A DNA stretch of 40,068 nucleotides from a virus, in the IMG/VR virus record IMGVR_UViG_3300010412_000063, positions 1-40,068 of that record; one strand, written 5' to 3'. How positions within the stretch are numbered: the stretch's first letter is position 1; each line of letters starts with the position of its first letter. The notes under the pieces were generated by a model. That model searched no databases, was not told where the DNA came from, and saw only the letters and a list, made by a program, of their open reading frames with translations. A program made the translations under genes and the position numbers. Of this stretch, positions 145 to 40,068 are shown in pieces.

Positions 145-239
145 TTGTGCCCGTGAAGGTGCGCGCACTTCGACTCGTGCCCGTGCACCGTGTGCCCGCA
201 GGCGATCTCGTGATCCCGCGTCGCATAGATCGTCGTCAT
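1..239 (-). CDS. queD: QueD, 6-carboxy-tetrahydropterin synthase (N-terminal part, cut by window edge)
   Basis: This is the N-terminal part of a 141-residue QueD whose remainder lies at 39738-40068 across the circular join. QueD converts 7,8-dihydroneopterin triphosphate to 6-carboxy-5,6,7,8-tetrahydropterin, the second step toward preQ0. Visible here is the family signature CAHLHGHNY: the catalytic cysteine followed by the HxH pair that binds zinc, with upstream histidines in the CGHTVHGH stretch. The ATG at 239 overlaps the folE stop as ATGA, so translation is probably coupled to folE. The joined length fits the small QueD class of roughly 120-145 residues. Assignment to the QueD/PTPS fold is firm. 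Assignment to preQ0 synthesis rests on the surrounding folE, queC, queE and queF. Confidence 0.93.
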   Translation of the reverse strand, partial: MTTIYATRDHEIACGHTVHGHESKCAHLHGHNYLFRLSCEAERSLDEIGRVIDFSVIKWTLCQWLEDNWDHRFLIFAGD

Positions 240-838
240 GGGTGCCTCGCTGCCTGCTCGATCAGACGCAACCCCTCCGCCTTGAGATCGGGGTCAGTAA
301 GGAAAGCTCCGCGCATCACGCTCGTAACCATGCGCGAGCGCTCGTGCAGCACCCCCCGGTAGGTCATGCAGTGATGCTCCGCGTCGACCGTCACAGCCAC
401 CGCACGGGGCGCACAGAGGGCTTCGATCGCGTCGGCAAGCTGCGCGGTCGCCTCTTCTTGAATCTGAGGACGGCGCATGACCCAATCGCAGAGCCGCGCG
501 AACTTCGACAGCCCGACCAATGATTCGCCGGGCCAAACGACAACCCAAGCCCGCCCGGTGATGGGCAGCAAGTGGTGCGAGCAGAGGGAACGAACTGAGA
601 GCGGCCCGACGACGTAGACCTGATCCGCGCCCTCGGCTTTCGGGAACGTCGTGATCTTGGGCGCGTCTCGATACGATCCCGAGCAGACCTCGTTGACCAT
701 CATGCGCGCCCAGCGGCGGGGCGTCTCGCGCATGTTCGGGTCGTCTTCCCAATCGAACCCGAGCGCCGTCAGCGCAAGGCCCATCGCTTGCGCTGCGCTG
801 TCCTCGTCTGCCTCATGCCCAGCTTCGTTGACTTTCAT
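236..838 (-). CDS. folE: GTP cyclohydrolase I (FolE)
   Basis: This 200-residue type I GTP cyclohydrolase opens GTP to 7,8-dihydroneopterin triphosphate, the entry reaction for both folate and 7-deazaguanine synthesis. The zinc ligands are visible as C86 and H89 in SLCSHHLLP and C157 in AEHHCMTYRG, matching the C/H/C set of bacterial FolE. The conserved GLSKFARL and RPQIQEE segments lie between them. The ATG at 838 is preceded by a GAGGG-type ribosome site. The gene overlaps the end of queC by 26 bases and its stop overlaps the queD start. In this setting it supplies phage-directed preQ0 synthesis rather than folate, because no other folate gene is present. Confidence 0.96.
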   Translation of the reverse strand: MKVNEAGHEADEDSAAQAMGLALTALGFDWEDDPNMRETPRRWARMMVNEVCSGSYRDAPKITTFPKAEGADQVYVVGPLSVRSLCSHHLLPITGRAWVVVWPGESLVGLSKFARLCDWVMRRPQIQEEATAQLADAIEALCAPRAVAVTVDAEHHCMTYRGVLHERSRMVTSVMRGAFLTDPDLKAEGLRLIEQAARHP

Positions 839-1538
839 TCCTTGCCCTCACGAGTAGCGGGTCGTCCTTGCCTGCGAGCCTGAAGCCCTCGGCGCGCAGC
901 ACGCACGCATGGCACACCCCGCACGGGGGGAACTTGCCCGCGTAGCACGTATGCGAGTAGGCGAGGGCTTCCATGCAGCCGGGAAGGTCGCTCGCAAGCT
1001 CGACCGACTGCGCCTTCGTCAACTGCAGGAGCGGGGCGTGGATGAGGAAGTTGCTGATGCCCAACGCCGTCTTGATCGCCAACTCCTGCGCGTAGATGAA
1101 GTCCCCACGGCAGTCGGGATAATTCGCATTGTCCATCTGGCAGACGCCCGTCACGAGGTCGAAGCAGTCGCGCGAGACAGCGTGATTGGCTGCAATCGTG
1201 AGGAAGAGGGCGTTGCGCATGGGGACGAAGGTCAACTCGACGCGATCGCCGATCGTCTGCTCCATCTGCTCGAAGGACTCGTAGGTTTCTAGTTCGGCAT
1301 TGAGATCGACTAGAGGCGAGCGGCTTCGCATCAGCCCATGCAGCCCGAGCAACTCCCAAGACTTCACGCCCGCGCGCTTCGCGATGTTGTGCGCCGCTTG
1401 TATCTCAATCGAGTGCCTCTGCCCGTAGTCGAACGTGATGGCATGCACTTCGTCGAAACGGCTCTTCGCCCAGAAGAGGGCTGTCGTGCTGTCCTGCCCG
1501 CCCGAAAGGACGACCATCGCCTTGTTGAAGTTCCTCAT
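813..1538 (-). CDS. queC: 7-cyano-7-deazaguanine (preQ0) synthase QueC
   Basis: This 241-residue ATP-dependent enzyme converts 7-carboxy-7-deazaguanine to preQ0. The PP-loop nucleotide motif SGGQDS is at residues 12-17 and the C-terminal zinc-site cysteines are at C198, C206, C209 and C212 (the CGVCHAC stretch). Length and motif order match bacterial QueC. I chose the ATG at 1538 because it gives an ATGA overlap with the upstream gene's stop, has a GGGGAG ribosome site, and starts directly before the PP-loop strand. The longer open frame upstream only shadows the neighbouring gene. Its tight coupling with folE and queD marks it as part of the DNA-modification operon. Confidence 0.96.
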   Translation of the reverse strand: MRNFNKAMVVLSGGQDSTTALFWAKSRFDEVHAITFDYGQRHSIEIQAAHNIAKRAGVKSWELLGLHGLMRSRSPLVDLNAELETYESFEQMEQTIGDRVELTFVPMRNALFLTIAANHAVSRDCFDLVTGVCQMDNANYPDCRGDFIYAQELAIKTALGISNFLIHAPLLQLTKAQSVELASDLPGCMEALAYSHTCYAGKFPPCGVCHACVLRAEGFRLAGKDDPLLVRARNESQRSWA

Positions 1539-2038
1539 CGCTGCTCCCCGAATAGATAGTCGCCGCCGTAGTGGCGCTCGCACCAGAACATCTTGCACCA
1601 GAGGGGACGACGCTCGCCCATCGTGCATCCCCCGGGACCCAGCATCGCGCAGTCGCCGGACTCCGCGAAGACGTCGAGGACGTTGAACGCATACGCCCCG
1701 ACGTTGATCCGAGCGGCTACCGCCACGGGAACAGGCGACGAAGCCACCTCGAGGTCAGTCGCGTATATCGCGATCTGATGCGTCGGAAGATTGCGACAGC
1801 ACTCCCCGCAGGACGCGCAGCGCTTGCCCATCTCCGGGCGCTGATCGCCTTCGCTAGATTGAAGGTCAAGGACAATCGAGTTCTCCGCGCGCCACCATCG
1901 CTTGCCCTGCGCACCCTTGAGGACGCGGATCGCTTTGATGTCCGCTTGTGAGTCTGCAACGACGCCCAGCAGGGGCGACGGCAGGACATAGGCAGACCGC
2001 AGCCACGACACACGAACGCGGTCTAGGTGCCGGTTCAT
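1535..2038 (-). CDS. YkgJ-like cysteine-cluster protein embedded in the deazaguanine operon
   Basis: This 167-residue protein carries a CxxCGxCC core (C74, C77, C80, C81) followed by C130, C138, C148 and C153. That pattern is typical of the YkgJ/UPF0153 family, which is thought to bind zinc or an iron-sulfur cluster and has no firmly established reaction. The first 65 residues are outside that core and I do not recognise them. The gene overlaps queF upstream (ATGA at 2038) and queC downstream (ATGA at 1538), so it is translationally locked into the preQ0/preQ1 pathway. A role in tailoring the deazaguanine base, or in supplying a metal centre, is an inference from position only. It is not one of the known queuosine enzymes. 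Confidence 0.8.
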
Positions 2039-2478
2039 TCCGGAACGTCCGACTCGACGTTGTAATCGATCGACGTCGCAGACCATTCGGGATTGATGCT
2101 GATGCCGCCCCGGGGCTTGAACTCGCCGCGCACCTTCAGCGAGTAGGGGTCCAGCAGCGCATACAACTCCTCGCCGATCATCTTGATGCACTGCTCATGG
2201 AACGCCCCGTGGTTGCGGAAGCTGAAGAGGTATAGCTTCAACGACTTCGACTCGACGAGACGATCGCGCGGTATGTATCGGATCGTGATCGATGCAAAGT
2301 CGGGCTGCTTCGTCTTCGGGCATAGGCTCGTGAACTCAGGACAGACGATCTCGACTTCCGTCTCTCCTGTCCCGCCTTGTGCGTCAAAGCTGATCGCCTC
2401 AAGCATCGTGGGATCGTATTGCGTCGGGTACTTCGTATGCCCCGAGCCAAGATGGGTTAGTGGTTTGACGTTGCTCAT
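2035..2478 (-). CDS. queF: NADPH-dependent preQ0 reductase QueF (unimodular type)
   Basis: This 147-residue QueF reduces the nitrile of preQ0 to the aminomethyl group of preQ1 using NADPH. The catalytic cysteine is C53 in [12 protein letters not shown], with the partner aspartate D60 and the H94-E95 pair in GAFHEQC. The QueF-specific NADPH motif ESKSLKLY is intact at residues 76-83. This separates it from QueF-like amidinotransferases that make archaeosine, which lack that motif. Length and similarity match the single-domain Bacillus type. The start overlaps the dpdA stop (ATGA). Its presence beside dpdA predicts preQ1, not only preQ0, as the base placed in DNA. Confidence 0.95.
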
Positions 2479-3368
2479 GCCCATGCCTCCGCGTATGCGC
2501 TTGCCTTCTTCCAGTGAACGAATGCCCGCAGCAAGTCGCGCAGATGCGTGCCGCCGGGACATGCGAGGTAATACGTTGTGCCTACCATGCGTTCGATGTC
2601 TGACGCTTGCGAGATCGACGAGAGCGTTGAGACGAAGGCGGCGCTCGAAGTGACCGTGCCTTCCTCGAAGCGCCCGTTGTTCTTCCATCCCTCTTGCTTG
2701 CCCAGCGCCTCGATCATCGCGTCGGTCGCGCCAGATCGCTTCAATGCATCGACGACTTCGAGCGGTGGGCGCATCGCGAAGTCCTTGCGGTTGATCTTCT
2801 TGGTCTTGCCGAAGCCGACGTAGACCGACAGCGATCCCCATCGATGCGCGCTGCGCCAGCTTGATGCGTCGACACTCGTCGGGCGGTACGTCTTGATGAA
2901 GTCGAGGTCGGTGAAGCCGAGCAGATGCACCTTGCGCTTGCCGTTCCTGCGCATGAAGGCGTTGACGTAGGCGCGGTTGTCCTTGCCCGTCGTGATGCCG
3001 CCGAACATCAAGTAGGGGGCGTGGGAGTAGAACTCGTCGAGGCGATCGAACGATTCGCCGCGAGTGAATACGGGCATGACATCGTGCCCTCGCCTGCGCA
3101 TCTCGAGGAAATTCTCGTGCGTTCTCTTCGGGTCGCCGAAGACGTCAAGCTGGACAGCGTTGAACGGAGCGAGGTCGCGGATCGAAGACAAGAAGGAGCA
3201 GTAGGCGTCAAGCTCGATTGGCGCGCCCGAGCGCCACGCAGTGAACGCGCCCGAGTCGACCATCAGCCGATAGTGCCCTCGGTACTCGCGGAGGATTGAA
3301 AGCGTGCCCTCCCCCTTCATGTAGGGGAACGCGAGAAGAATCGGCAGTCGATAGGCGCTCTGGCTCAC
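2475..3368 (-). CDS. dpdA: DpdA-like DNA guanine transglycosylase
   Basis: This 297-residue protein resembles the phage DpdA family, distant relatives of tRNA-guanine transglycosylase that exchange guanine in DNA for a 7-deazaguanine. Landmarks are VDSGAF (D38), echoing the DSGGF aspartate of TGT; the QLDVFGDP stretch (D75) followed by a conserved threonine and asparagine; GGI at 123-125; and SVDASSW (D167), a candidate nucleophile region followed by RWG. The start is GTG at 3368, overlapping the ParB-like stop (GTGA). The ribosome site is weak, consistent with coupled translation. It sits first among the deazaguanine genes and is the enzyme that links base synthesis to DNA. Which deazapurine it accepts cannot be read from sequence; the adjacent queF argues for preQ1. 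Confidence 0.85.
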
Positions 3369-4518: not shown

Positions 4519-5327
4519 GCTTTGCTCCTGTTGTCATAGTGACCTTCCACCACCTTGATGAAGTTCGTCGGCGCAAGGAGCCAGTCGAAGCTCGCGCGCC
4601 ATTCTGTCGACTTGCCCGAGAGGAAGTTGCTGCGCCCGCCGCGCGCGAAGATCGCATCGAAGACCTTGAGCCCTTCCTCCGCGCTTGCGATCTTGTCTTC
4701 CGCGCACACCTGTCGCCATCGCGCGCCGATCGTTGCTTTTCGCTTGTCGCTGAGGATCTCAACACGCGAGAGCGTCGGAAAATGCTTGTGGAACAGATCG
4801 ACGATCGCTGCGTGCGGGCAGCGCGGGGCGATGTAGGAGTGGGTCTTCGACTTCGCGACAGCGACTTCGCCTTCGTCGTCGTCTTCGGACGGCGACAAGA
4901 GTCCGAAGGACTCTGTCTTTTCTGTCGTTGTGGGTGTGGGTGTGAGTGTGGTTGTGGGTGTAGAGGCACTTGCTTGGCTTTTGCTTGACAGTTGCTTGGC
5001 TTTTGCTTGATAGCCTTGCCTGCCTGCTTCAGATCGAGCGCGGGAAATGGACTCGGCGCGCTCGATCTCTGCTTGCATCCTCTTGTTGTACCAGCCGTCC
5101 TCGCAACGAATGAAGAACCTTGCGAGGATGTAGCGCAAGGCTTCGATCTCGTCACTCGAACGGCAGTTCGCGACGCCCGCTGCCTCTTGCTCGTCGAGCG
5201 GCACGGGACCCTTCTGATCCCAGCAGTGCATGAGCAGCAGCAGATACACCCCGTGGCGCAATGGGGAGAGGTGGCGCGTGTCGCGCAGATAGTCGCCCGA
5301 GTAGAGCGGCATGAAGGCAAAGGACAT
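4515..5327 (-). CDS. DUF1376 (YdaU-like) replication-associated protein
   Basis: This 270-residue protein begins with the DUF1376 signature: a YSGDYLRDTRHLS stretch at residues 9-21 and an aliphatic LLLLMHCW run ending near residue 36. In phages this family is usually linked to replication initiation or helicase loading. A Ser/Thr/Pro-rich linker follows the first 110 or so residues and separates a C-terminal domain. The start at 5327 is chosen for its GGAGG site eight bases upstream; the open frame continues further but has no ribosome site and enters the palindrome-rich control region. It is the first gene of the minus-strand operon that goes on to the modification and packaging genes. Confidence 0.8.
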   Translation of the reverse strand: MSFAFMPLYSGDYLRDTRHLSPLRHGVYLLLLMHCWDQKGPVPLDEQEAAGVANCRSSDEIEALRYILARFFIRCEDGWYNKRMQAEIERAESISRARSEAGRQGYQAKAKQLSSKSQASASTPTTTLTPTPTTTEKTESFGLLSPSEDDDEGEVAVAKSKTHSYIAPRCPHAAIVDLFHKHFPTLSRVEILSDKRKATIGARWRQVCAEDKIASAEEGLKVFDAIFARGGRSNFLSGKSTEWRASFDWLLAPTNFIKVVEGHYDNRSKA

Positions 5328-5483: not shown

Positions 5484-5530
5484 AAACCGAATTCGGTGTC
5501 CCAGAAACTGACGCAAACCGAATTCGGTTT
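5484..5530. promoter_or_regulatory. Tandem palindromic operators (ACCGAATTCGGT x2)
   Basis: The palindrome ACCGAATTCGGT occurs at 5486-5497 and again at 5517-5528, centres 31 bases apart, close to three helical turns. The second copy extends to a perfect 16-base palindrome at 5515-5530. Spacing on one DNA face suggests cooperative binding by a dimeric regulator between the divergent operons. Both copies contain GAATTC. Confidence 0.6.
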
Positions 5531-5539
5531 TCGGGATTG

Positions 5540-5576
5540 ACGAAAGGATGACGCAGCAGCTACGTCATCCTTTCGT
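5540..5576. promoter_or_regulatory. Perfect 14-bp inverted repeat
   Basis: The arms ACGAAAGGATGACG (5540-5553) and CGTCATCCTTTCGT (5563-5576) are perfectly complementary with a nine-base spacer. There is no T-tract on either side, so a terminator is unlikely. Its place in the divergent control region fits an operator or a cruciform-forming replication element. Confidence 0.55.
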
Positions 5577-7427: not shown

Positions 7428-8444
7428 ATGAGAGCGAAACAACTCACCAGCCTGTTGACGACAGCCATCGCCGCATCGTTGCCGGTGCTCATCACTGGCG
7501 CGCCCGGCATCGGGAAGAGCGACATCGTGGCGCAAGCCGCTGCCGCTGCTGGCGCGGAGCTGATGATCTCCCACCCCGCGATCGAAGACCCGACGAAGCC
7601 CGGCGGGCTGCCGATGGCGAAGCAGGACGACGAGTGGGCACGCCTGCTGCCGTTTCACGATCTGTGGCGCGCTCTGAACGCGCCGGGCCCGTTCGTCTGG
7701 TTCCTCGACGATCTCGGGCAAGCGACGCCTGCCGTCCAAGCCGCCTACATGCAGTTGCTTCTGGCGCGCGAAGTCAACGGGCAGAAGCTGCCGCCGTGGG
7801 TGACGTTCGTCGCTGCGACGAACCGCCGCACCGATCGCGCTGGCGTCAGCGGCATCCTCGAACCCGTCAAGAGTCGATTCGCGACGATCGTCGAGTTGGA
7901 GGTCCACGTTGAGGACTGGCTCGATTGGGCAGCGGAGAACGACGAAGCGCCAGAGGTCATGGCGTTTATTCGCATCAAGCCTGACTCGCTGCACGACTTC
8001 ACGCCCACCGCTGATCTGACGAACAGCGCCAGCCCGCGCACTTGGCACAACGTCTCCAAGTGGGTGAAGCTGCAACTGCCGAACGATCTCGAACTGCCGA
8101 CGTATGCGGGCGCGGTGGGCATGGGGCAAGCCGCAGCGTTCACGGGCTTCCTTCGCATGTATCGCGACATGCCTTCGATTGACGAGATCATCCTCGACCC
8201 GAAGAAGGCAGCGATTCCGAAGGACACCAGCGCGCTCTGGGCAGTGGCGACGGGACTCGCGAGCTACGCGAACCCCGAGAACTTCGAGCGAGTGCTGACG
8301 TATGCCGAGCGCCTCCCGCAGGAGTTCGGCATCGCTTGCGTCCGCGACGCCACGCGCCGCGATAAGAGCGTGACGAAGACGAAGGCGTGGATGCGATACG
8401 TCACTGGCCCGCTTGGCAAGGCGGTCATGGGCGACGTCGCCTAA
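7428..8444 (+). CDS. MoxR-type AAA+ ATPase
   Basis: A 338-residue AAA+ protein. Walker A is GAPGIGKS at residues 24-31, Walker B is FLDDLGQ around D94-D95, sensor 1 is AATN at 129-132, and a candidate arginine finger is R150 in the KSRF stretch. The residue pattern fits the MoxR class, which remodels partner complexes with VWA-domain proteins. A VWA/metallopeptidase-like gene lies two genes downstream, so the pair probably works together, as in RavA-ViaA. The ribosome site is TAGGAG. What it remodels in the infected cell is unknown. Confidence 0.85.
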   Translation: MRAKQLTSLLTTAIAASLPVLITGAPGIGKSDIVAQAAAAAGAELMISHPAIEDPTKPGGLPMAKQDDEWARLLPFHDLWRALNAPGPFVWFLDDLGQATPAVQAAYMQLLLAREVNGQKLPPWVTFVAATNRRTDRAGVSGILEPVKSRFATIVELEVHVEDWLDWAAENDEAPEVMAFIRIKPDSLHDFTPTADLTNSASPRTWHNVSKWVKLQLPNDLELPTYAGAVGMGQAAAFTGFLRMYRDMPSIDEIILDPKKAAIPKDTSALWAVATGLASYANPENFERVLTYAERLPQEFGIACVRDATRRDKSVTKTKAWMRYVTGPLGKAVMGDVA

Positions 8445-8461
8445 TCGATTGCAGGCTTCGA

Positions 8462-8522
8462 CTCAATGCCCCGCGCTGCGGGGCATGAGGGCGCAGCTTG
8501 CGCCCCTCGCAGGGAAGCGAGG
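8462..8522 (+). promoter_or_regulatory. Triple-hairpin intergenic element, copy 2
   Basis: Three stem-loops in tandem: ATGCCCCGC/GCGGGGCAT (8466-8474 with 8478-8486), GGGCGCA/TGCGCCC (8489-8495 with 8499-8505) and CCTCGC/GCGAGG (8505-8510 with 8517-8522). The first hairpin and linker share the TTCGACTCAATGCCCC and GGGGCATGAGGGCGCA segments with copy 1. The later stems differ in sequence but keep pairing, which argues for selection on RNA shape. It directly precedes the ribosome site of the 8545 gene. Confidence 0.6.
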
Positions 8523-8544
8523 CAACAACGCATAGGAGCAAGAC

Positions 8545-9435
8545 ATGACACCCACTTCCAGCATCGTGACCCGCGCGCTGCTTGTCGATCTGACAGTGAG
8601 CAGAAGGACAGGCGTCCGCGCTGACAAGCAGGCGACCGAGACCGTGCGCTCGCAGTACCACGCCAACGGCAACGTCGGGAGCTACGCCAAGAAGTTGTTT
8701 CCGCAAGACCCGCCCGAACTGAAGAAGATCGGGACCGTCATCAACAAGTGCGAAGCGATGCACAAGGAGAAGACGCTCGCGTGGATGACGGGCTGGCGCA
8801 TCATCCCGCGCGAGCTTCACACGGAGTACGCGACGGAGATCGGCAAGCTCCGCATTGAACTCGAGGACGCGGTCCGCGAGTTCGTCGCAGCGCTGCCCCG
8901 CCTCAAGCAGGAAGCGCAGGCGATGCTCGGCAAGTTGTACCGCGACGAGGACTACCCGAGCGCGGGCGAGTTCGAGTTGAGCTACGGGATCGACGTTCGC
9001 TTCATGCCGGTGCCCGACGTCAACGACTTCCGCATCGAACTCGACGCGGAGACGTTGAAGGACCTCCAAGAGTCCTACTCCGACGACATGCAGCGCTCGA
9101 TGTCCAGCGCCGTACAGGACGCCTTCGTGCGCCTTGAGAAGGTGCTCGGCAATCTCGTCGACGCTTGCACGCGAGTCGACAGCAAGGTGGCAAGCGGCGC
9201 GAAGCTCGCCGTGATCCGCTCTGCTGTCGTCGACAACATCAAGGAGTTGGTCGACGTCATGCCGACGTTGAACATCGCCAACGATCCCAACCTCGAAGCG
9301 ATGCGGGCAGAGGTCGAGCGCAAGCTCGGCACGCTGAACATCTCAGACCTCAAAGAAAATCCCGACGCGCGCGCCGACGCCAAGAAGAAGGCGGACGCGA
9401 TCCTTCGCAAGATGCAGGGCTTTATGAGGAAATGA
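8545..9435 (+). CDS. Hypothetical helical protein between MoxR ATPase and VWA protein
   Basis: A 296-residue, mostly helical protein with charged stretches and no recognised catalytic motif. It lies between the MoxR-type ATPase and the VWA/metallopeptidase gene and overlaps the latter's region, suggesting a three-gene unit. The AGGAG ribosome site is six bases upstream of the ATG. The N-terminal third contains an Arg/Lys-rich region and a QYHANGNVGSYAKKLF segment. Similar genes appear in other phages that carry this ATPase pair, to my recollection, but I cannot name a family. It may be an adaptor or substrate of the ATPase. Confidence 0.75.
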   Translation: MTPTSSIVTRALLVDLTVSRRTGVRADKQATETVRSQYHANGNVGSYAKKLFPQDPPELKKIGTVINKCEAMHKEKTLAWMTGWRIIPRELHTEYATEIGKLRIELEDAVREFVAALPRLKQEAQAMLGKLYRDEDYPSAGEFELSYGIDVRFMPVPDVNDFRIELDAETLKDLQESYSDDMQRSMSSAVQDAFVRLEKVLGNLVDACTRVDSKVASGAKLAVIRSAVVDNIKELVDVMPTLNIANDPNLEAMRAEVERKLGTLNISDLKENPDARADAKKKADAILRKMQGFMRK

Positions 9436-9437
9436 CA

Positions 9438-10733
9438 ATGACATCCATGATCGAACTTGAAGCGGTTGGCGTGCGCTCGAAGATCACGAAGGCGCGCATC
9501 AACATGATGTTGACCATGCCGTTCTTCGGTCCGCTGGCGATGAAGTTGATCCCGGTCGCCCGAGAGCAGCGCGCGCCCCTGTCGACAGACGGGCGCCATT
9601 TGTTCTTCAACCCGCGGCTCATCGCGAATTGGTCGATGTCGCGACTGATCGCAGGCATAGCGCATGAGGTCTTGCACTGCGCGCTAGGCCACCCGTGGCG
9701 TCGTGGCAATCGCGATCCCGAGGATTGGAACATCGCTGCCGACCACGTCATCAACCTGCGCCTGCAGGAAGACGGACACGACATCGGCGAGAACTGGCTC
9801 GCGGACAAGCAGTACACGGGCCTCGCAGCGGAGATCGTCTACTCGATGATCCAGCGCAACAAGCCGCCGCAGCAGCCGCCGCAGCCCGAGTCGCAAGACG
9901 AGGACGACGGCGAGGGCGACGAAGACGACGAAGCCGACGGCGATCAAGGCGGCGACGATGACGGGCTGAACGAAGACGCGGACGACGACGAGCAGCAGGG
10001 CGACGGCGGCGCGCCGCAGAGCGAAGCGCCGGGGGGAGAGACACGACCCGGCGACGTCGAAGACCCGCAGCCCGAGGACGACATGCAAACGGCGACCGAA
10101 GCTGCCGAGGAACTCGAAGCAGAGTGGAAGCTCGCCGTCGCGCAAGCTGCATCACTCGCGCAGGGCGAGGGCGGCGCGTCGATGGCGACTGCTGTCGAAG
10201 AGTCGAAGCGCGCCAAGATCGATTGGCGTGCGGAGCTTCGTCGCAAGCTGCAGGAAATATCGCGCAGCGACTACACGTGGACGCGCCCGAGCGTTCGCTA
10301 CCTTGCGCAAGGCTTGTATCTGCCTTCGCTTCGTGACGAGCGCATGGGAACGATCGTCGTCGTCCGAGACACCAGCGGCTCGATCGGCAATGCGGAACTC
10401 TCTGCCTTCAACGCGGAGATTGCTGCGATCGTCGCCGAGTTGCAGCCGACGCGGACGATCGTGATCGACTGCGACGCGCGAGTGGCGAAGGTGTGGGACA
10501 TCGAAGCGGGCGACGACTTGCCCGACCTCGCGCAAGCGTACGGACGGGGCGGGACATCGTTCGTGCCGCCCTTCGCGTATCTCGAACGCGAGGGCATCGA
10601 GCCTCGCTGCCTCGTGTACCTGACGGATATGTACGGCGATTTTCCAAAGGACGCGCCGCCGTTCGATGTCGTCTGGTGCGCGACGACGCGAGAGATCGCG
10701 CCATTCGGGGAGACGCTTCCCCTTAACGGATAA
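9438..10733 (+). CDS. VWA-like protein with N-terminal HExxH metallopeptidase-like domain (DUF2201 type)
   Basis: A 431-residue protein. Residues 76-80 are HEVLH within AHEVLHCALGH, a zincin-like HExxH with a further histidine at H85. An extremely acidic linker of Asp, Glu, Gly and Gln spans roughly residues 140-210. The C-terminal part is a VWA-like domain with the MIDAS motif DTSGS at 311-315, a GGTSF threonine near 373 and LTD near 397. This N-peptidase-like plus VWA layout is that of DUF2201 proteins, partners of MoxR ATPases. I prefer ATG 9438 because GAGGA lies seven bases upstream; an ATG at 9432 overlaps the previous stop but sits too near that site. Confidence 0.85.
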   Translation: MTSMIELEAVGVRSKITKARINMMLTMPFFGPLAMKLIPVAREQRAPLSTDGRHLFFNPRLIANWSMSRLIAGIAHEVLHCALGHPWRRGNRDPEDWNIAADHVINLRLQEDGHDIGENWLADKQYTGLAAEIVYSMIQRNKPPQQPPQPESQDEDDGEGDEDDEADGDQGGDDDGLNEDADDDEQQGDGGAPQSEAPGGETRPGDVEDPQPEDDMQTATEAAEELEAEWKLAVAQAASLAQGEGGASMATAVEESKRAKIDWRAELRRKLQEISRSDYTWTRPSVRYLAQGLYLPSLRDERMGTIVVVRDTSGSIGNAELSAFNAEIAAIVAELQPTRTIVIDCDARVAKVWDIEAGDDLPDLAQAYGRGGTSFVPPFAYLEREGIEPRCLVYLTDMYGDFPKDAPPFDVVWCATTREIAPFGETLPLNG

Positions 10734-13426: not shown

Positions 13427-13464
13427 GGCTGTCAGCGGTGGGCTATCATCCGCCGCTGACAGCC
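13427..13464. promoter_or_regulatory. Inverted-repeat operator ahead of the Cro-like gene
   Basis: Perfect arms GGCTGTCAGCGG (13427-13438) and CCGCTGACAGCC (13453-13464) flank TATCAT (13444-13449), a possible -10 box. The site ends 17 bases before the Cro-like start, as for an autoregulatory operator. The TGTCAGC core recurs at 5908-5936 and 14456-14474. Confidence 0.6.
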
Positions 13465-13729: not shown

Positions 13730-13775
13730 AACCCCCGCAGGCGGCGCTCTGGCGTCGTTCTGCGGGGGTTTTCTT
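13730..13775 (+). terminator. Rho-independent terminator
   Basis: Perfect 11-base arms AACCCCCGCAG (13730-13740) and CTGCGGGGGTT (13760-13770) are followed by TTC and a short T-rich stretch. It ends the long rightward block just after the Cro-like gene and just before the VRR-NUC gene. Confidence 0.8.
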
Positions 13776-13786
13776 GCGGCTGCGGT

Positions 13787-14236: not shown

Positions 14237-14443
14237 CTACCCCTCCCCTTCGTTCGTCTCGGTCGCGTCGTCAATGATCGCTGCCCCCTGCTGAACCAGC
14301 ACCACGAGTTCCTCCTGCGATGCAAGCTCGACCTCGAACGCTCGCCGCGTCGCTGCGTTGCGCGCGGCTTGACGATTGAGTGCCTTAACCAATACCTTCT
14401 TGCCCGAGTCGCGATCCTTCACCACATAAATTTTCTTCTGCAT
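14237..14443 (-). CDS. Small hypothetical phage protein
   Basis: A 68-residue protein on the opposite strand to its neighbours. The ATG at 14443 has a TAGGAGA site; a longer start would run into the operator. The sequence starts MQKKIYVVKDRD, then an Ala/Arg helix, then VELASQEELVVLVQQGA. It resembles small proteins found in many proteobacterial phages whose role is unknown. A TGTCAGC inverted repeat directly upstream suggests Cro-like control. Confidence 0.65.
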   Translation of the reverse strand: MQKKIYVVKDRDSGKKVLVKALNRQAARNAATRRAFEVELASQEELVVLVQQGAAIIDDATETNEGEG

Positions 14444-14455
14444 GTCATCTCCTAA

Positions 14456-14484
14456 TGTCAGCCCCACGCTGACATGCGATGTTA
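14456..14484 (-). promoter_or_regulatory. Promoter with TGTCAGC/GCTGACA operator
   Basis: On the minus strand TGGTAACAT gives an extended -10 (14484-14479). Downstream of it TGTCAGC (14456-14462) and GCTGACA (14468-14474) form an inverted repeat with five-base spacer, just before the ribosome site of the minus-strand gene. The half-site equals that of the Cro-like gene's operator. Confidence 0.4.
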
Positions 14485-14515
14485 CCATCCCCGCGATGTT
14501 TTAGAGAGAACAAAG

Positions 14516-14725
14516 AGCCGCGTGCAGTCGGTGAAGCGTGAGGTTCTCTCACTTCCTTACGCTTCTCTCATCTCAGCTCGCGCCGGGCGGGCAACTGCAC
14601 AACCCGGCACCAATACCGAACAGCCGCGTGCAGTCGGTGAGGCGTGAGGTTCGTCATCCTCCTTGCGCCTCTCTCCCTTAGCCCGCGCCGGGCGGGCAAC
14701 TGCACAACCCGGCACCAGTATCGAC
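14516..14725 (+). repeat. Tandem duplication of a structured ~105-base RNA-like element
   Basis: Two direct copies start at 14516 and 14622 with identical ends (AGCCGCGTGCAGTCGGTGA at the left, CGCCGGGCGGGCAACTGCAC at the right) and divergent middles. In each copy GTGCAGT pairs with ACTGCAC (14522-14528/14594-14600; 14628-14634/14699-14705). GCCGGG pairs with CCCGGC (14582-14587/14603-14608; 14687-14692/14708-14713). These two stems interleave, as in a pseudoknot. An inner stem is GAAGCGT/ACGCTTC in copy 1 and GAGGCG/CGCCTC in copy 2, an A-U to G-C compensatory change. I see no gene in it. Function unknown. Confidence 0.7.
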
Positions 14726-14750: not shown

Positions 14751-14936
14751 ATGACGCTGCTTGAATGGTTCACAGCCAATCCGTCCGAGCAAGGATTGCG
14801 GGCGAATTTCTACGAAGAAGTCCGCCGCGCCCTCGCCATCGCGCAGGCGGCGGAGGAATGGGTGAAGGACGGTGACGTTACCGCTCAGTTCATCTTGCGC
14901 CGTGCCGACGAACTGCTGGCGGGGAAGGAGAAGTGA
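14751..14936 (+). CDS. Small hypothetical protein
   Basis: A 61-residue, mostly helical protein directly after the duplicated RNA element, with a weak purine-rich ribosome site (GGGGAAG). It starts MTLLEWFTANPSEQG. Its stop overlaps the next start. Part of a three-gene accessory unit (14751-15417). No family recognised. Confidence 0.6.
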   Translation: MTLLEWFTANPSEQGLRANFYEEVRRALAIAQAAEEWVKDGDVTAQFILRRADELLAGKEK

Positions 14937-15205
14937 TGCAGTCACCGATAAGCTGGCGGTCCCTCGTCCCAACGGCGCGATGGCATGCGCTGCCGGGATG
15001 CGTCGCCGAACTGCGCACGATCAGCGGCACGGTGTTCGAGCGCATCGTGTCCACGAAGGTCGGCGAACATACGCTGGCATCCACCGGGCGCTGCTATCAC
15101 TCATTTGCCGATGCGCTAGTCGAAGCGGAGCATCGATTGCAGGAAGCGCTGCTCGGCTACAAGTCGATCGACACGAAGCAAGGGCAAGGCGATGGGCAGC
15201 AATGA
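14936..15205 (+). CDS. Small hypothetical protein
   Basis: An 89-residue protein with an AAGGAG site and ATG at 14936; a GTG at 14933 would add one residue. Overlaps the upstream stop and the downstream start, so the three small genes are translationally linked. It has a beta-rich middle (TVFERIVSTKVGEHTL) and a helical C terminus. Function unknown. Confidence 0.6.
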   Translation: MQSPISWRSLVPTARWHALPGCVAELRTISGTVFERIVSTKVGEHTLASTGRCYHSFADALVEAEHRLQEALLGYKSIDTKQGQGDGQQ

Positions 15206-15417
15206 CGCTCACCGACCTTGCCTTCGTCATCATCGGTGGCGCTGGCGTGCTGCTGATCCTCGAACTGACGCACTGGATGTACGGGCGTCCTAAGCTCGAC
15301 GACTCTCGGCGATCGAGCGCACCGCGTCGCCCGATGCCTTGCTGCCTGCACTGCTGCCGAAACGGTACTGGTAGATCGCGATCGAGAATCCGATCACGGT
15401 GCCGCAAGTTCCGATGA
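15202..15417 (+). CDS. Small membrane protein, converging into the endolysin gene
   Basis: A 71-residue frame starting in an ATGA overlap. Residues 5-24 (DLAFVIIGGAGVLLILELTH) form one membrane segment; the rest is Arg/Cys-rich. Its last 128 bases lie antisense to the 3' end of the endolysin gene, so the C-terminal sequence is constrained and may be unimportant. The N-terminal part looks real. A lysis-accessory role is possible given the neighbour, but unsupported. Confidence 0.5.
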   Translation: MTLTDLAFVIIGGAGVLLILELTHWMYGRPKLDDSRRSSAPRRPMPCCLHCCRNGTGRSRSRIRSRCRKFR

Positions 15418-15913
15418 AGAGCGCGACGAGTTCGCCCATCGGCTTATGGTCATCGAAGTAGATGGTTTGCAGCACCAGCAGAGTGACGATAGAAGCGAAG
15501 ACGGTCGCCGCTGCTCCGAGCGCGCCGTAGATCAGCACGTTGGTCGCCGAGTTGATCGCATCGTCGCCCTTGGCGCGAGCCGCCGCCCTGTCCATGCTGG
15601 CGTCGTCTGCCTCTTGCGCGCGGACGATCATGCCGAGCAGTCGATCGTATTCGTCGAGCAAGGCGTCCCGCGCTTCCTTCGCTGCTGCTGGCGACGCGAC
15701 GAGCGCCGCCACTGCCTTCTGTTCGTTCCACTCGGTAGCAGGGACGTCCGCTGGCTTCGTCGCGTCGGCGATCTTGCCGAGCGCGATCGTCGCCGCCTCG
15801 ATGTTGCGAGCCTTCACGCTCTTGGTCTCGTCGAGGAACAACTTGCCGATCTCGGGCAGCACGGTCGCGGCAGCTTGAATCAGTCCGGTCAGGATAGGCA
15901 GTGGGAGAGCCAT
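15290..15913 (-). other. Possible internal-start product: holin-like membrane protein
   Basis: An in-frame ATG at 15913 (Met211 of the endolysin gene) is preceded by GAGG at five bases and starts MALPLPILTG directly after the Pro-rich linker. It would give a 207-residue protein with a helical N-terminal part and two membrane segments, similar in layout to holins of the three-TM family. Whether it is made separately cannot be told from sequence. Confidence 0.45.
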
Positions 15914-38386: not shown

Positions 38387-38581
38387 TCAACGCGCGAATG
38401 GTGGCACATTGCCCTCGCGATACTGCTTCGCGGCTCTCGTGTGTCTCGACTTCTGCGAGGCGTTGCGCCGTCGGTCCTTGATCTTTTCCTTGCACACCCC
38501 GCAACATGTACTGCCCTCGTCGAACGCGCAGGCTCGCCGCCATCGCCCGCATCCGTAGCAGTAACGCTCGCCGTCCATCAT
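38387..38581 (-). CDS. Small zinc-ribbon protein
   Basis: A 64-residue protein with CYGCGRW near the N terminus and CCGVC near 25-29, then a basic helix (KEKIKDRRRNASQKSRHTRA). The CxxC...CxxC plus basic tail resembles the short zinc-ribbon proteins related to the endonuclease VII N-terminal motif, but no nuclease residues are obvious. The first of two ATGs (38581, 38578) overlaps the queE stop. It may belong to modification or packaging. Confidence 0.65.
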   Translation of the reverse strand: MMDGERYCYGCGRWRRACAFDEGSTCCGVCKEKIKDRRRNASQKSRHTRAAKQYREGNVPPFAR

Positions 38582-39258
38582 CGGACTCCGATGTACTTGT
38601 GCGTCTGAATACTAACCCCCCACCCGCGTCTTGTGGCAGCGCTGACGCACAGGCGCGTGGCTGCGTTGCTCTGCGACAGGGGTTGGAGGTAGACGGGCAC
38701 CTTCAGCTTGAAGCGTCGTCGGTTGTCAACGAATGCTTCGATGTCAGCGAGCTTACCTACGGGGAGCTTGATCTCGTCGGCGCGAATCCAATTGGTTTCG
38801 AGGACGCTGCGCCCGCCGGGCATGTTGAGCTTGGGCGAGAGCGTGAGCCAGTAGCCCTCCCGCATGGGCAGGCGATACGTCCCGCTGCTCTCGATCTGGA
38901 CGTAAAAGCCCGCGCGGATGAGTTCGTCGAGCAGGGGGTCTAGGTCATAGATGCCCGGCTCGCCGCCCGTGATGACAACGTGGCGCGTGTCGGAGTCGTT
39001 GAGGACGTAGAGGATCGCGTCGACGATTCCAGCTGCGTCGAACTTCGCGAAGCGATCGGACGGGTCTTCGTCCTTCAAGAGGACGACGTTCCGCGTGACC
39101 TCGTTCTCTTCATCGATGCTCCACGTCCACTTTGTGTCGCACCACGGGCACCCGACATCGCAGCCCTGCAGGCGCACGAACACTGCCGCGCGCCCCGTCC
39201 AGCGTCCTTCTCCTTGAATCGTCAGGAAAATTTCATTGACCGGGTAGGATTGTTTCAC
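38578..39258 (-). CDS. queE: 7-carboxy-7-deazaguanine synthase QueE (radical SAM)
   Basis: A 226-residue radical SAM enzyme that converts 6-carboxy-tetrahydropterin to 7-carboxy-7-deazaguanine. The N-terminal EIFLTIQGEG motif, the CxxxCxxC iron-sulfur triad in LQGCDVGCPWCDTKW, and VVITGGEP are diagnostic of QueE. The start is GTG 39258 with an AGAGG site. Ten bases separate it from the upstream PD-(D/E)XK-like gene. This completes the GTP to preQ0 pathway with FolE, QueD and QueC. Confidence 0.96.
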   Translation of the reverse strand: MKQSYPVNEIFLTIQGEGRWTGRAAVFVRLQGCDVGCPWCDTKWTWSIDEENEVTRNVVLLKDEDPSDRFAKFDAAGIVDAILYVLNDSDTRHVVITGGEPGIYDLDPLLDELIRAGFYVQIESSGTYRLPMREGYWLTLSPKLNMPGGRSVLETNWIRADEIKLPVGKLADIEAFVDNRRRFKLKVPVYLQPLSQSNAATRLCVSAATRRGWGVSIQTHKYIGVR

Positions 39259-39741: not shown

Positions 39742-40068
39742 CTCGAACTCCAAGTGGCGCTGCACTTGCGGGTCTCCCACACGGTTACGCTCGTGAGGTT
39801 GATCTCGGGCGGGAGCAGAAGGGGACCGAGATGCGTGCCAACGTAGGCGGCGAGGTTCTCGGCAGTCGGGTTGAAGGGCAGCACGACGACGGAGGGGTCG
39901 GCTTCGACTAGCGCATCGCGGCGCGGGTCGCCCGCGAAGATCAAGAAGCGGTGATCCCAGTTGTCTTCGAGCCACTGGCACAACGTCCACTTGATGACCG
40001 AGAAGTCGATCACCCTCCCGATCTCGTCAAGCGACCTCTCAGCCTCGCATGACAAGCGGAAGAGGTAG
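39738..40068 (-). CDS. queD: QueD, C-terminal part (cut by window edge)
   Basis: This is the remainder of the queD gene that starts at 239 on the other side of the circular join. It includes GRVIDFSVIKWTL and the DHRFLIFAGDP segment (Zn/substrate-side histidine), FNPTAENLAAYV, and VTVWETRK with the conserved glutamate. The last four bases overlap the start of the PD-(D/E)XK-like gene. Joined length is 141 residues. Confidence 0.93.
   Translation of the reverse strand, partial: YLFRLSCEAERSLDEIGRVIDFSVIKWTLCQWLEDNWDHRFLIFAGDPRRDALVEADPSVVVLPFNPTAENLAAYVGTHLGPLLLPPEINLTSVTVWETRKCSATWSSR
39925..40068. repeat. Terminal direct repeat, right copy (circular overlap)
   Basis: Identical to bases 1-144. 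Removing one copy gives a circle of 39,924 bases in which queD is intact. Confidence 0.95.

Follow-up and report, generated by a model that had tools for sequence, protein, structure and literature searches.

Two tandem members of a probable new family of structured RNA in a phage genome

The phage DNA described here very probably contains, in tandem, two representatives of a structured phage RNA family that is unnamed, new and rare. The window (the whole stretch of DNA that was analysed, 40,068 nt) ends in an exact 144-base repeat (1-144 and 39925-40068), and because of this terminal repeat the record is taken as a complete, circularly mapped phage genome. Its content, as judged from sequence reading and family matches, includes siphovirus-like structural genes, RecT, a VRR nuclease and 7-deazaguanine genes. 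The two copies occupy the gap between a leftward gene at 14237-14443 and the rightward open reading frames (ORFs) of 14751-15417. The core fold suggested for the family would consist of a stem P1 (6-7 bp) around a variable insert (0, 1 or 2 hairpins) and a hairpin P3, the loop of which would pair with six bases starting two nucleotides 3' of P1.

Layout and fold of the tandem copies

The features of the region are the following.

14237-14443, minus strand: small leftward gene; the start is read as an ATG behind AGGAG, the ORF being open to 14488
14511-14616, plus strand: copy 1 of the structured RNA element, 106 nt
14522-14528 (5' strand) and 14594-14600 (3' strand), plus strand: P1 of copy 1, GTGCAGT/ACTGCAC; compensatory change in the relatives L139/L152 and L158
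14533-14543 (5' strand) and 14555-14565 (3' strand), plus strand: P2 of copy 1; A-U to G-C and U-A to U-G changes against copy 2
14576-14592, plus strand: P3 hairpin of copy 1, loop GCCGG; P3 covaries in L158
14582-14587, plus strand: putative pseudoknot 5' strand of copy 1, GCCGGG, complementary to 14603-14608 and invariant
14603-14608, plus strand: putative pseudoknot 3' strand of copy 1, CCCGGC, preceded by the linker AA
14617-14721, plus strand: copy 2 of the structured RNA element, 105 nt
14628-14634 (5' strand) and 14699-14705 (3' strand), plus strand: P1 of copy 2
14639-14649 (5' strand) and 14661-14671 (3' strand), plus strand: P2 of copy 2
14681-14697, plus strand: P3 hairpin of copy 2, loop GCCGG; 14687-14692 would pair with the tail at 14708-14713
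14708-14713, plus strand: putative pseudoknot 3' strand of copy 2, CCCGGC
14751-14936, 14933-15205 and 15202-15417, plus strand: three small downstream ORFs, which the element may or may not serve

The copies are 87% identical and have a period of 106. A previous sequence-only reading of this region had described two 105-base copies, which holds for their number and tandem order, the first being one base longer. The core that is conserved between phages runs from CCGCG (14518) to CACC. On the plus strand of each copy P1 is the outer stem and closes a three-way junction holding P2 (11 bp with an 11-nt loop) and the P3 hairpin. The GCCGGG strand is made up of the P3 loop and its first 3' base, and its complement CCCGGC lies two bases 3' of P1. 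These strands, as well as those of P1, are identical in both copies and interleave in the way that had been proposed, and all the pairs, knot included, are possible in both copies (29/29). With a linker of only two bases from the foot of P1 to the knot, P3 would have to fold back beside P1, and this geometry would make the fold compact. In the minimum-energy fold calculated free of the knot the tail CCCGGC pairs with the 5' GCCG instead of the P3 loop, so that two pairings compete for the same tail. This competition, the three-way junction and the change in P3 given below extend the earlier description.

All four stem substitutions between the copies preserve pairing, in one double change and two wobble changes. 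The double change is found in P2 (A-U to G-C, 14535/14563 vs 14641/14669), as is one wobble change (U-A to U-G, 14539/14559 vs 14645/14665); both had been pointed out from the sequence and are confirmed. The other wobble change is in P3 (U-G to C-G, 14578/14590 vs 14683/14695). Read as the plus strand 58/58 cells are paired, against 54/58 as the minus strand, in agreement with the claim that the changed U-G pair forms only in plus-strand RNA. Nevertheless this asymmetry does not prove that the element acts as RNA, since G-T pairs form in single-stranded DNA also. Substitutions are rarer in paired columns (4/58 vs 8/34, Fisher p = 0.026), and when 12 substitutions are placed at random all pairs survive in 0.2-0.7% of trials.

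The folding z values of the two copies are -4.2 and -3.7 on the plus strand and -2.0 and -1.4 on the minus strand. A scan covering part of the window found other places with similar or lower z, and for this reason folding energy alone is not the argument. In the same way a structure descriptor gave scores of 79 and 81 for the copies and no more than 62 for other places of the window or for shuffled sequences, but a score of 83 arose by chance in the GC-rich coding DNA of other phages, so that the descriptor alone is not specific. A free descriptor scan was dropped as evidence because a control sequence gave as many matches (50 against 45).

Relatives in other phages

At its gathering score Rfam gave no match in the window, and an exoribonuclease-resistant RNA (xrRNA) was not among the weak matches with E ≤10. 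A blastn search with the element gave no match in 50,697 phage records or 72,556 plasmids, and exact core and P1-based patterns gave no match or chance matches. A DNA-pattern scan of IMG/VR, in which only GCCGGGCG and AACCCGGCACC were fixed with a free gap between them, found 26 places. Among these are L139 and L152, which belong to near-identical phages and are true homologs. They have CCGCGYGCAGTCGG in common with the window on the 5' side, and on the 3' side 36 bases with one difference from copy 2. The Y of the former together with the latter difference changes P1 from GTGCAGT/ACTGCAC to GCGCAGT/ACTGCGC, which is compensatory. P3 and the tail are as in the window, and the P2 region is different and has one hairpin more. 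A model built from the window copies alone (R1) recovers both at E of about 1e-5.

The same model finds L158, a third lineage, with E of 1.1e-3 in a 472-kb set and 1.5e-4 in a smaller set. Its element has 60 nt and no P2, with an 11-base linker in its place; its stems are TGCGGTA/TACCGCA (P1) and CGGCGC/GCGTCG (P3), and its 5' block matches that of the window in 11/16 bases. Against a phage-DNA background the probability that a place found by the pattern combines an exact P1 fit with a P3 of 5 bp or more is 0.0009, and L158 and L161 both do so among roughly 22 remaining places. L161 and L144 are weaker candidates for relatives. The P1 of L161 is uncertain since its best fit begins inside the upstream gene, and L144 keeps P3, loop and tail and has no clear P1. 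Agrobacterium vitis, Paracoccus, Sulfitobacter, CcrColossus and CSP3 gave near-matches that were discarded after inspection.

Model R1 found no match outside the window in 49 related phage contigs, and a second model, R2, run on 50 records returned the known members, the two candidates and some weak scores, and nothing further. Relatives that share the structural genes of the window phage do not have this region. No Rfam family matches any member tested (all but L144), which agrees with the previous statement that no named RNA family with this plan was known; that the element is a conserved structured RNA with covariation is supported as well. Homologs with conserved pairing had been named as the check for this idea, which survived the search.

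Covariation across the members

The alignment comprised the two window copies, L139, L152 and L158. In these five sequences every cell pairs and five pairs change on both sides, the covarying helices being P1, P2 and P3. Only 1/500 shuffles reached the observed paired percentage and covariation score and 2/500 the number of double-changed pairs, figures to be read with the few lineages, a shuffle control that ignores relatedness and an alignment fitted to the model in mind; L158, moreover, was picked partly on structure and then counted in the alignment. Slid controls gave at most one double-changed pair. Unpaired bases are also strongly conserved in sequence, among them those of the loop, linker and tail, and a CC 5' of P1 is complementary to a GG of the junction in all five sequences.

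The pseudoknot strands do not vary in the alignment and are complementary in each sequence. The knot that had been proposed is thus backed by complementarity and invariance and not by covariation, which could not arise independently because the search pattern fixed its letters in the relatives. From the sequences its formation is plausible.

Genomic setting of the members

In L139 and L152 about 9 nt separate the stop codon of the major tail protein from the start of the element, which is closely followed by a tRNA-Met of the same strand. In L139 the RNA element, the tRNA-Met and a T-run follow each other at 8222-8440, with the major tail protein gene on one side and the gene for the tail chaperone on the other. 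Three phages in which the tail gene is related were inspected, and two of them, DC31 and P26059A, have a terminator-like hairpin with a T-run at the same place. The element of L158 starts about 10 nt past a short ORF, with a convergent gene after it, so that the placements in L139/L152 and L158 are transcript-boundary positions. L161 is situated close to where a regulator-like gene ends, and L144 ahead of a gene. Unlike L139 and L158, the window copies have no plus-strand gene immediately upstream. The structured strand is the sense strand of the neighbouring genes in the window, L139/L152, L144, L161 and on the upstream side of L158. The members have no flanking gene in common, which speaks against a leader dedicated to one particular gene and in favour of a function contained in the element itself; the tie to the 14751-15417 genes suggested before is therefore not upheld, the relatives adjoining unrelated genes.

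Possible function and comparison with known RNAs

The sequence-only reading had offered a riboswitch-like leader, a small RNA, a ribozyme or a nuclease-resistant element, and judging by the fold plan the last of these appears to be the best fit. The compact fold would form a mechanical roadblock at which exoribonucleases stall on the transcript; mRNA ends would thereby be set or protected, and tandem copies would make the block more complete. This mechanism is tentatively favoured, as a possibility that falls short of an even chance, because the plan matches that of viral exoribonuclease-resistant RNAs. The transcript-boundary positions in L139/L152 and L158 and the terminator-like hairpins at the corresponding place in DC31 and P26059A speak for it; against it are the preference of the knot-free fold for the competing nested pairing, the invariance of the knot and the position of the window copies, which do not directly follow a plus-strand gene.

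The xrRNA_D class is known from plant viruses (Dianthovirus, Polerovirus and others) and is built from P1, a hairpin and a knot from its loop to the 3' side, the stems being variable and the bases immediately ahead of the knot's 3' strand conserved; it stops 5'-3' exoribonucleases at the base of P1 and has conserved L1 and L2B sequences (PMC6299227). The present element likewise has P1, a second hairpin, loop-to-3'-of-P1 complementarity, variable stems and conserved bases before the 3' strand of the putative knot, and L158, with its 60 nt and no P2, is nearest in plan. It differs in occurring in DNA phages and, in the window and L139 members, in the extra P2 insert. Class-1 xrRNAs of flaviviruses add a three-way junction and occur in tandem, and have a conserved junction C, a base triple and a ring that encircles the 5' end; a flavivirus example belonging to a tandem pair blocks both Xrn1 and bacterial RNase J1 (PMC5760640). 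The plan of the window copies resembles theirs in the predicted three-way junction, the putative L3-to-3' knot (L3-S4) and the tandem arrangement, to which the CC/GG complementarity between the 5' side of P1 and the junction may be added, but there is no Rfam sequence match, and L158, having no P2, has no junction. The likeness to xrRNAs, in whose plan an extra helix is likewise optional, is one of secondary structure, with no claim of class membership, and may be a coincidence.

Other explanations can be weighed against the same observations. A cis-regulatory leader, riboswitch-like or a protein-bound operator, in which the pseudoknot and the nested 5' GCCG/CGGC pairing alternate and so control downstream translation, would suit the position of the window copies about 30 nt ahead of the first start codon, as a leader of the small ORFs, the two pairings that vie for one tail and the placement of L144, likewise ahead of a gene. 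It is nevertheless rather unlikely, as the relatives stand beside unrelated genes (tRNA, tail genes, a convergent gene) with no common downstream gene, no metabolic gene is present and no Rfam riboswitch matches. Independence of the neighbouring genes, tandem units with an identical fold and the strong sequence conservation of unpaired bases would all be expected of a trans-acting phage RNA (a small RNA, decoy or antitoxin-like RNA) processed into units of about 106 nt. We consider this unlikely, given that neither promoter nor terminator was seen at the element, that Pfam and PADLOC show no toxin-like neighbour gene and that the relatives have a single copy.

A signal in single-stranded DNA or a mobile DNA hairpin, acting in replication, transposition or packaging and not as RNA, appears improbable. 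G-T pairs would form there too, the occurrence at unrelated places in unrelated phages suits mobility, and the tandem pseudoknot motif STAXI has been discussed as possible single-stranded DNA (PMC2864571); against this, the structured strand coincides with the neighbours' sense strand, as given above, and no transposase, relaxase or target duplication was seen. A self-cleaving ribozyme is very improbable, in spite of the compact knot and the conserved loop, linker and tail bases, since Rfam, searched up to E 10, has no ribozyme that matches the window element. HDV-like ribozymes, moreover, have a strand order unlike that of this element.

Several other identities were compared with the element. 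Protein coding was rejected, the copies being 106 nt apart, which is not a multiple of 3, and the conserved blocks of L139 lying past the stop codon. A tRNA or tmRNA was rejected for the element, as was an intrinsic terminator (no T-run). C4 antisense RNA of phages P1/P7 (RF01695) is also a structured phage RNA of about 100 nt, and gave no match to its family model up to E 10. Type III antitoxin RNAs (ToxI, CptI) resemble the element as tandem pseudoknotted units upstream of a small gene but differ in that no Rfam match exists and no ToxN/CptN/TenpN-like endoribonuclease was matched (Pfam for the first two ORFs, PADLOC for all three). The ToxI unit has about 36 nt, the unit of this element being about three times longer. 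STAXI, with its tandem pseudoknot repeats, occurs occasionally near phage C4 RNA (PMC2864571); the present element, in contrast, has no UUCG loops, no ssDNA-binding or integrase gene is adjacent in the window, and the STAXI family model is absent from the Rfam matches up to E 10.

The literature on xrRNA and bacteriophages gave no phage example among the matches listed. A broader reading, that DNA phages encode their own exoribonuclease-resistant RNA, convergent with the viral xrRNAs and tandem as in flaviviruses, which would halt host RNA decay and yield defined phage transcripts, is speculative and on present comparisons unlikely. What is added here is an uncatalogued family of phage structured RNA with members, alignment and coordinates. 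If the roadblock were true, nuclease-blocking knots would not be confined to RNA viruses of eukaryotes, and phages would have an RNA-only means to resist host RNA decay.

Neighbouring genes and other sequence features

The 14237-14443 gene had no relative in the searches made, Pfam and PHROGs among them. No Pfam or PHROGs family matched the ORFs 14751-14936 and 14933-15205, and no PADLOC family any of the three ORFs of 14751-15417. A structure predicted for the 14936-15202 protein was of poor quality (pLDDT 56) and was left out of the evidence. The palindrome TGTCAGC-N-GCTGACA occurs twice (13430-13461 and 14456-14474) where none is expected by chance, one of them immediately preceding the ribosome binding site of the 14237-14443 gene; these are probably operators or RNA hairpins. 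A strong terminator-like hairpin, AACCCCCGCAG...CTGCGGGGGTTTTCTT, is placed at 13730-13776 in the interval between the Cro-like gene and the VRR nuclease, and the rightward genes nonetheless continue.

Genes at 236-3368 and 38578-39258 are, in our own reading of the sequences, presumably FolE-, QueC- and QueE-like, and a DpdA-like queuine tRNA-ribosyltransferase is found among them by family match. To judge from the sequences, this gene set probably serves 7-deazaguanine DNA modification. Short iterated direct repeats of the TTGCTTGGC/TTGCTTGAC type with 11-base spacing at 4967-5010 could be an origin or operator. At 5484-5576, the start of the rightward early region, the inverted pair AAACCGAATTCGGT/ACCGAATTCGGTTT is followed by a near-perfect 18-bp hairpin, and within the early region (7428-10733) an AAA ATPase is encoded near a DUF2201 metallopeptidase/VWA-like protein. 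Finally, the 3' part of the endolysin gene (15309-15607) has 74% DNA identity to the lysin gene of the L152 phage, so that the RNA element is not the only segment which the two phages have in common.
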